A DNA stretch of 64,000 nt from Styela clava (lineage: Eukaryota > Chordata > Ascidiacea > Stolidobranchia > Styelidae), in the NCBI RefSeq assembly GCF_964204865.1, contig NC_135258.1, positions 9,353,001 through 9,417,000 on the forward strand. The letters run 5' to 3'. Numbering within the stretch: position 1 is the stretch's first letter; each line of letters begins with the position of its first letter. This document shows, one piece after another, positions 22,938-44,096 of the stretch. The notes under the pieces were generated by a model. It worked only from the letters and a program-made list of their open reading frames with translations. It searched no databases and was not told where the DNA came from. A program made the position numbers and the translations under genes.

Positions 22938-25900
22938 TTATTTTGCATTCATCATTACATCACAAACTTTTTTATGTTTCGGCCAATGCTTAACTTGACA
23001 CTCCCTGGAAAGAAAATATCGAAAACCTGTTAATGTAATAGAATAATCTTTTGGTAAGCTGCAAGAAATAGTATAATCCTGAATATTACAAATACGAAAC
23101 TGATGATTCTTTCGTAAAATTAGTAAAAACCAGCTGAAGTGACAATCACATACTACGCTAGAACAGACAATTTTACAGAATTTACTTGCGCTAGAAATTA
23201 AATCTTTTGAGGGTACAAGGAAAGCAAGTTAGTTAATAAAAACCTGTTCTATTTTTCAAACAAATGTAAACAAATGTACACAAGTATAAGTCAACTATAA
23301 TAGAGAAGCAGCTCAAATGAAAATGACAATAAGAAAGTCTACATAAGATAGTTGGTAAATGTTTACCTTTTACAATACCATTCTTGTCGACATCTGGAAC
23401 ATCTTTTCGTGGCTTCTTCACCACAATTAGAACATTTGGGAACTTCAGAAAGCAAAGAGTCCATGACATCAAAATTATAGGTGTCAGCCAACCTGAAAAA
23501 ACAATACATTCGTATCAGTCGAATGCTGAGCATTGTAAAGGTGACTTGAAAGAAAGAATCCATAAATTTTCTAATCGCCGTACTAATAAAAATTGAGTAA
23601 ATTTATTAAATTTTGTTTCCATTTGAACTTCTGTTTGTATATTATTGTACCCAGCAGTTTCATGAATTCAGTTCAGTAAAAGTGTACGAAAGTTATGATC
23701 TCGACGTTGGAGACAGACTTTCATCTGTTTTGCAATGATATACAATGCCAATTCAATGCTGCAAGCAGACATGCTAGCTCTTGCCTGTTGCTGACTCATT
23801 GGAGTTCAACACCATTCACGTTTGAAGAACTGTACACCATTTGCTTGGCATTTGAGGAAACTGTCTATATGGGGGATCAATAGCTTTCTTTGGCGCAGAC
23901 CATTCAAATGGCGATTGGGACCCTATATGATATACCTATCCCAATTTCTAACTAAAATAAAAATTTAAAACACTAAACTGTCTTGATAATCCAGGACTCA
24001 AACAATACAAACCTTTTAGCCTGAGCTTGAATTTCACTTTTGGAAGGATTGAAAAAATTCTTCATTTGGTATTTTGCAATCGCCTTCCATTTTCCTTCAT
24101 TTTCTTTCATAATTCTATCCATGATTTCCGGAACTTGTTCCAAGATTAATTCACGTCTGAAAAAAGGGGTAATTTGAGCGATTCATTCATTCAGGGGTGG
24201 AAACCAAATAAGGTTATATAGAGTGTGTTTCTCACTTGGGTGGAGGAGGATCCGTCATGGATAACTGTTCTAAATATTGTCTGAATTGTGCAAGAATCGG
24301 TAACTGATCGAGTAGAACATCATTCATGAAACCCCGAAGCTAAAATATAAAGAACAAAAGTTGAAATTTGAATCAAACAAAATAAGTACAGATTTGAGAG
24401 AAATGCTCAAGAATATATTTATGGGCGGTTATACCAAAGCTCGTTCCGAATATCTGGGAGGTACCCAACGAAAGAAATGTGAAAGTTGATGAAGCTGAGG
24501 AAATTGCAGGATACTGGTAAAAACGAATGGAATATTCAAACACATTCAAAATTTAACAAGGTAAGCATGTGATTTATTAGAGAGAGAGAGAGAGTTCAAA
24601 ACAATAAACAAACCTTCAGAATTTGTGTCTTATTATATGAATTGAAGTCGTATTTCAATGCAGATTCTCTATTCATCAATAAATTATAAATGGCAAGCCA
24701 AACTTGTCCTTCTGTTTTTGTCAATTGCATAATATCGGGCCCTGATACTGGTGTCCATTTTCCATCTGTCAAGTAATGAAAATATCTTGTTTTATTCTTA
24801 GCGATATGTATATATTACTTGACATTTAATAAAAATGTGTTCTATCACAAAAAATTATTCCAAGAATTTTCCTCCAATAATCATTCAGAATTTTTGACAT
24901 TTGATGCTAACATGAAGTCTACTTACTTTTTTAGATATATATATGTATATATATATGATAAGGAACAAATTAGGGGGAAACCTCATTTTTGGGAGATAAA
25001 ATTGACACAATAGTACAATTAAAAAATTCCAATTTTTCAGGAGTGAAAACCTGTGTGCTTTCATATGCACATTAGTGATTGCAAATTCATATCGGATGTT
25101 TTAAAAACTCAAAGCATACTTCACTAAAAAAATTAGTATTTATAGAATAATTGCTAAATTTCACTAATGAAAATCTTCAGATTCTTTCAACAACTCCATT
25201 AATTAGTCATCACTAATTCAGGATGCGAGTAATGAAATAGGTTATGCGACCCTTAAACCTGAGAGAATCGGACCTATACAAATATGACTCAATGATTGCC
25301 TTATCCAAAACTCGTTCAGTCAAAGCTACGAAACACACCCTATGAAAAACTTTGAAACACAAACAGATGTCACCATATCTGGTAGATGAAAACAAATTTA
25401 TAGGACCTTGCAGCAAACGCCACACATACATTTTCTACCATCAACTTAGTATCAGAATAACTGAGTATTTTCACTCTTCATCCAACTTACCGATAAACTT
25501 CATCACTCCTGAACTTCCATTTTTAGTCCATGGTGAATTTTCTACAAGTTCCACAAGCAAACATGGAATATTATGAACTTCTAACACACGACTTCTTGTA
25601 CTGAGGGGAACGCTAAATGGTTGAATAAAAATAATTACATAAACAACCCCACAACGAGGAATTATTCGCTCTTATGTGTAGAGCGAATTATGAATTATAT
25701 TCAACGAAGCCAGTCAGAGGGACTATCACCTTTCTTTACTTTACTGTTCAATCACTCAAGAGTATTATACATTTAGTTTTGGCAACTTTTAGGAGAAATT
25801 CATAAATAAAAGAATATTAATCATGTCACAAAAATTGCATCTCACCAATCTAGACAGTCGGTAATATATCTCAATATTGACATGCATTTTACTGCAATTT

Positions 25901-43496: not shown

Positions 43497-44096
43497 TCAA
43501 ATATCCAGAGGGTTCAGACCGAACTCTAGAAGAGTAATTTTAGTTTGTTCCTGTATTTTAATTCCTTCTTGATCCCATTTATCCTTAGCTTCATCAATTT
43601 TTCCAATAAGTGAATCAAGCGAAGCCGTAAGGACTCCTTCGTATGATATTTCCATTTCATCGATTCTTTTTTCCAATATTCTGATTGTTTCGTTTTTTTC
43701 CTGTTCCATTTCTTCTTTTTCTCGTTTCGTTGTTTCAAGCTCTTGTCTTGCATTCGCTACTTGTTGTCTTAGATGTTCTACTTCTGTGTTTAGTTCTCGC
43801 ATTCTAATGTCCATATCCGTGTGCATCGTTTTATATTGTCGAGTCAACTCTGCACTGACATCTTTTTGTTCCAATTTCTGCTCCTCAAGATTTTCCTCCA
43901 TTTCATGAAGACGATTCTTCCAATCTGATGCTTGGGCTTGTGATCTCCGAGCAATTTCATTTCGATGAGCGAGATGTTCTTTCAGAATTTCAATTTCTCT
44001 AACAGTCTTTTTAAATTTGTCTTCTTCTTTTGCTACATCCTTCTTTTTGCCCTTCTTTCCTTTCTTTCCCTTGCCCTTTTTCTTTTTTGGTGGCAT
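43497..44096 (-). CDS. DRC12: DRC12 / CCDC153, nexin-dynein regulatory complex
   Basis: Coiled-coil component assigned to the dynein regulatory complex, the axonemal link that coordinates dynein arms. 199 aa in one exon. A Lys-rich N-terminus (MPPKKKKGKGKKG) leads to FKKTVREIEILKEHLAHR, then a continuous Glu/Lys/Gln coiled coil with LTRQYKTMHTDMD, and the family-typical end SLDSLIGKIDEAKDKW... FGLNPLDI. Length is close to the vertebrate protein (about 210). The start is the only ATG that keeps the Lys-rich tail; a weak acceptor (CTATTATAG) sits 12 nt upstream. AKAP14 follows directly on the same strand. Low-complexity coiled coils can mislead, but the C-terminal FGLNPLD motif makes the family call good. 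Confidence 0.88.
   Translation of the reverse strand: MPPKKKKGKGKKGKKGKKKDVAKEEDKFKKTVREIEILKEHLAHRNEIARRSQAQASDWKNRLHEMEENLEEQKLEQKDVSAELTRQYKTMHTDMDIRMRELNTEVEHLRQQVANARQELETTKREKEEMEQEKNETIRILEKRIDEMEISYEGVLTASLDSLIGKIDEAKDKWDQEGIKIQEQTKITLLEFGLNPLDI

Follow-up and report, generated by a model that had tools for sequence, protein, structure and literature searches.

The window, that is, the whole stretch of 64,000 nucleotides that was analysed (NC_135258.1, 9353001–9417000, on a contig of 23.5 Mb in an assembly of 376.6 Mb and 379 contigs), contains four cilium or centriole genes, ZMYND10, CEP135, AKAP14 and DRC12 (CCDC153), within an interval of 21.2 kb (22938–44096). All four are encoded on the minus strand, their frames open, and a single plus-strand F-box/WD40 gene sits among them (Table 1). 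Genes were called by six-frame reading and hand-built splice models, followed by Pfam and PDB-sequence searches. When the frames of the interval were read by eye, no sixth gene was seen, and the window as a whole gave no tRNA (ARAGORN) and no Rfam match at gathering score. The gene content points to an animal source; a query for COX1 across the assembly gave no match.

Table 1 Genes and other features of the window and its flanks (positions in window numbering).
Feature	Positions	Strand	Description
Neutral ceramidase gene	1211–4105		single frame
Protease pieces	9307–12467	-	trypsin-type (Pfam, frame 10961–11269), with a kringle-like segment (by eye)
Short interspersed repeats	15166–17522; 28324–28470; 42167–42317		recurring string, partly inverted arrangement; the last two spotted by eye
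ZMYND10 orthologue	22938–28782	-	11 coding exons, 440 aa
CEP135 orthologue	30457–33966	-	one open frame, single coding exon, 1169 aa
F-box/WD40 gene	38574–40448	+	single coding exon, 624 aa
AKAP14 orthologue	40942–43133	-	5 coding exons, 185 aa
DRC12 stop to AKAP14 start	43134–43496		363 bp, head-to-tail pair
DRC12 (CCDC153) orthologue	43497–44096	-	one open frame, single coding exon, 199 aa
EIF2B1 gene	46714–47625		single frame
Inverted copy	55400–55535		related to the direct repeat family
Direct repeats	59383–61593		about five copies of ~200–300 nt, 62–98% alike, start-to-start mostly 237–430 bp
WDR97-like WD-repeat gene	~145500–161000		~100 kb from the cluster (by eye)
Flank genes			chromodomain/ankyrin protein, MFS transporter, PP1-type phosphatase, archease, ARMC8, TAF5, MAK16, FMO (by eye)
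Flank genes (continued)			RPIA, PTGES2, MED31, TAF13, SLK-type kinase, RFK, GNPNAT1 and the WDR97-like gene of the row above (by eye)

Pfam finds three of the five genes of the interval, ZMYND10 by its MYND finger, AKAP14 by its AKAP28 domain and the plus-strand gene by its F-box and WD40 repeats. In the spliced model of ZMYND10, a dynein-arm assembly factor, all 10 introns (from 28782 down to 22938) are bounded by GT..AG, and the zf-MYND match (45.1 bits) covers residues 397–433, at the C-terminal end of the protein; the best PDB matches were 2d8q (ZMYND10 MYND structure, 3e-15) and 2dan. A genome-wide search for MYND fingers listed 13 matches, none of them in the window, probably because an intron splits the finger of this gene. 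The AKAP14 model, for the axonemal anchor of PKA, likewise has GT..AG at each of its four introns (43133 down to 40942), and its product covers the AKAP28 profile end to end (1–121 of 121, 174.8 bits), matching PDB entry 9d2f, named 'A kinase (PRKA) anchor protein 14', at 2.4e-34 with a CFAP97D1-named chain (9fqr, 1.7e-20) as runner-up. Its N-terminal stretch, read by eye, holds a candidate amphipathic helix for binding PKA RII.

For CEP135 and DRC12, Pfam returned weak profiles only, below cut-offs (coiled-coil profiles for DRC12), and their identities are settled by PDB sequences that match both. CEP135 matched two CEP135 entries, 7bji (1.5e-43, residues 65–182) and 5fcn (4.6e-11), the former placing a CEP135-type N-terminal coiled coil within a long coiled-coil protein. 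In DRC12, CCDC153 (8th8, 8tid) was the sole sequence matched at E<=0.01 (1.3e-9, residues 5–177); CCDC153 is named DRC12 in a published Tetrahymena model of the nexin-dynein regulatory complex, the complex in which its role is placed (PMC10504270). The plus-strand gene matched F-box-like (6.6e-9) and WD40 (4.3e-23) families in Pfam; among the best 60 of its 188 PDB matches there were WD40 and FBXW7 chains and no FBXW2 chain, and we take the gene to be FBXW2. The earlier note had read the gene list, strands and coordinates off the raw sequence, and the splice models together with the Pfam and PDB matches showed the names to be accurate and the positions right, with FBXW2 as a putative name. All four cilium and centriole genes, with their identities established, are ordinary and conserved.

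The window also holds protease pieces, a family of direct repeats with a related inverted copy, and the recurring string CCAAGATGGCG, which occurs in short interspersed repeats resembling small non-autonomous elements.

In CEP135, FBXW2, DRC12, EIF2B1 and the neutral ceramidase gene, the whole coding region or Pfam domain lies in one frame, and frames with a whole or near-whole Pfam domain were also seen in the flanks for the phosphatase, archease, MED31, TAF13 and riboflavin kinase (one frame each). These single-frame genes adjoin genes with several introns, such as ZMYND10 and AKAP14. Because open frames that hold such a domain complete or almost complete are frequent in this neighbourhood, the intronless CEP135 is not special here. 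The lineage may have lost introns or gained retroposed copies, which would account for conserved genes in a single frame; no clear A-rich tract of the kind expected of retrocopies was found in the 400 bp past five single-exon genes, the richest tract (14 A in 20, past FBXW2) lying within AT-rich sequence.

The wider neighbourhood was surveyed over 100 kb on each side, with genes named by eye from likely-coding frames and long frames partly viewed. Sixteen flank genes were named, with further frames there left without names. For 10 of the 16 we ran Pfam on one frame each, and nine matched a family; the ARMC8 frame showed HEAT/Arm repeats only, just under cut-offs. Beyond these matches, the exact names are our assumption. 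One WD-repeat gene, which we take to resemble WDR97, is possibly a further cilium gene: one of its frames had no Pfam match and two others matched WD40 chains. As it is the only one of the 16 that looks ciliary, there is no obvious sign of a broader ciliary domain in the region.

We asked how often such a grouping arises by chance by placing K ciliary genes randomly among N, with N assumed to be 20,000–30,000 and K set to 687 and 956, the sizes of two published ciliary gene lists given in PMC11317154, with 400, 1300 and 2000 added as bounds. At least one run of five genes with four or more of them ciliary appeared in 0.035–0.085 of simulated genomes at K=687 (0.005–0.007 on one strand) and in 0.113–0.333 at K=956 (0.018–0.045 on one strand). 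At the bounds, the fractions were 0.003–0.007 (one strand 0–0.003) for K=400, 0.318–0.713 (0.062–0.165) for K=1300 and 0.848–1.0 (0.245–0.58) for K=2000. Uniform placement by base pair, which ignores gene-dense regions, gave 0.006, 0.024 and 0.080 expected clusters for K=687, 956 and 1300. With CEP135 left out, a genome is expected to hold 0.15–1.6 clusters of three in five at an assumed 300–500 motile-cilium genes (one strand 0.05–0.44), and 2–11 with lists of 687–956 (one strand 0.54–3.04). The plain chance of four genes sharing a strand is 1/8. Seven of the 10 recognised window genes are on the minus strand, and the six outside the cluster divide into three minus and three plus. An explanation of the shared strand by local strand bias (0.167 for four of ten with 7/10 minus) was dropped, as this count includes the four genes themselves and the other six are evenly divided. 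The four-of-five grouping is mildly unusual under random gene order, on figures uncorrected for a trait picked post hoc among many possible ones.

The scan for RFX X-box-like sites covered, at each start, the 1000 bp before it and the 100 bp after it. The best scores were 7.37 for ZMYND10, 8.96 for CEP135, 6.59 for AKAP14 and 5.93 for DRC12, values that 71%, 52%, 81% and 92%, respectively, of equally long window segments matched or beat. Scores for 87 segments taken from other loci had a median of 8.1 and an 80th percentile of 9.3, with CEP135 above the median and the other three below. Among five other starts, those of SLC35A (13.1), an SRRM-like gene (11.2) and EIF2B1 (10.0) scored higher than all four ciliary genes, and those of ceramidase (8.2) and FBXW2 (8.4) did not exceed all four; two of these comparison starts are imperfect, the SLC35A position being approximate and an earlier exon, near 51580–51735, probably containing the real start of the SRRM-like gene. 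The 600 bp upstream of each of the four genes contained no GTTRCC half-site (background 0.37 per 600 bp) and no FOXJ1-type TGTTTAC. Per 600 bp upstream, TRTTKRY occurred on average 6.0 times in the four genes, 4.23 times in 13 control genes and 3.12 times in the background, and RTAAAYA 3.25, 2.00 and 1.23 times; these are raw counts inflated by AT-rich promoters, and control starts are the first ATG of the open frame. No 8-mer was common to all four upstream regions; four 7-mers were, a number reached or surpassed by 27% of 150 random sets. Taken together, the X-box scan, the counts of RFX, FOX, NF-Y, MYB and E2F cores and the common 7- and 8-mers gave nothing specific except the slight FOX-like excess. 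In the promoter checks proposed in the earlier note, X-box-like sites were unremarkable in all four genes and TGTTTAC was absent, while looser FOX-like cores were slightly commoner than in the 13 controls. The negatives are weak, as the scans were anchored on coding starts with no known ciliary gene of the same genome as positive control.

We consider that four conserved, independently regulated cilium and centriole genes have become neighbours by chance in a gene-dense stretch (probability of about 0.72). Nothing in the sequence indicates that their closeness has an effect, and chance is therefore the best current explanation; that the proximity is without effect we infer from the absence of positive signs. 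Counting against chance, the one-strand run is the rarer outcome (0.5–4.5% for K=687–956), few clusters are expected when genes are placed by base pair, FOX-like cores are somewhat more frequent upstream of the four genes, DRC12 and AKAP14 lie just 363 bp apart, and the X-box-like score of CEP135 exceeds the median of other loci. Each gene would keep to the role known for its family: ZMYND10 would help to assemble dynein arms, CEP135 would serve centrioles, AKAP14 would anchor PKA at the axoneme and DRC12 would belong to the nexin-dynein link. The human orthologues of the five genes sit on five chromosomes (3p21, 4q12, 9q33, 11q23 and Xq24), and this counts against a conserved cluster of ancient origin. 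That the clustering is functional had been offered earlier as an inference; it found no positive support here and is neither supported nor refuted. The interval illustrates how, at this genome size, four such genes can come together by coincidence.

The alternative of a co-regulated ciliogenesis block, in which selection would hold together genes that lie in one domain of open chromatin or answer to the same distal FOXJ1/RFX enhancer, appears unlikely to us. It would account for four of the five genes being ciliary and on one strand, and the slight excess of FOX cores upstream is consistent with it. However, the X-box-like scores of all four genes fall in the lower half of local segments, the upstream regions lack a common 8-mer, FBXW2 breaks up the block, and the human orthologues are dispersed. 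CEP135, moreover, is a centriole protein needed in all dividing cells, with a role wider than the motile-cilium programme. Promoter-proximal X-boxes may be dispensable, since in frog multiciliated cells Rfx2 and Foxj1 are found at chromatin-loop anchors, which have been proposed to draw distal sites towards the promoters of cilia genes (PMC5245798). In frogs, the study describes Foxj1 as favouring distal enhancers and Rfx2 as stabilising Foxj1 at promoters, and core multiciliated-cell genes as lying at domain boundaries, like genes generally (PMC5245798). Gene-dense conserved blocks are also more co-expressed than random ones, according to PMC8851819. Were conservation and co-expression to be shown for the block, it would be a rare example of cilium genes held in linear order and a natural site to seek a shared enhancer.

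A narrower version would confine the functional link to DRC12 and AKAP14, by way of common regulatory sequence or read-through (bicistronic) transcription, with the other two genes as bystanders; it seems very improbable. These two coding regions, head-to-tail and 363 bp apart, are the nearest thing to a linked unit in the interval. Nevertheless, AATAAA occurs at offsets 1 and 91 beyond the DRC12 stop, where the second is in a good position to terminate DRC12 separately, and chance alone is expected to give ~16–46 adjacent ciliary pairs per genome with 687–956 ciliary genes. We give hardly any credence to a cilium or sperm-flagellum block built secondarily in this lineage, in which single-exon CEP135 and DRC12, derived from mRNA, would have become neighbours of the intron-rich genes ZMYND10 and AKAP14, in chromatin that the male germ line keeps open, and been retained through shared activity.

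In the literature library searched, no paper had at least three of AKAP14, CCDC153, ZMYND10 and CEP135 together, and none of the publications listed for the clustering of ciliary genes, judged by titles and abstract openings, described such a cluster. Compared with known systems, the interval is like chance neighbourhoods in animal genomes in having a few related genes within tens of kb, an unrelated gene among them and no common promoter motif found, whereas a one-strand run of four in five falls towards the rare end of our simulations. ZMYND10, AKAP14 and DRC12 are motile-cilium genes, and we know of no requirement for linear clustering in the FOXJ1/RFX cilium gene battery. In the gene content of these three the interval resembles that battery (PMC5245798), but the scan of the four starts found no outstanding X-box-like site. 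The conserved, co-expressed microsyntenic blocks of animals, as characterised in PMC8851819, offer a further likeness, since the interval, here known from the sequence of one genome, is also a dense block of non-paralogous genes.
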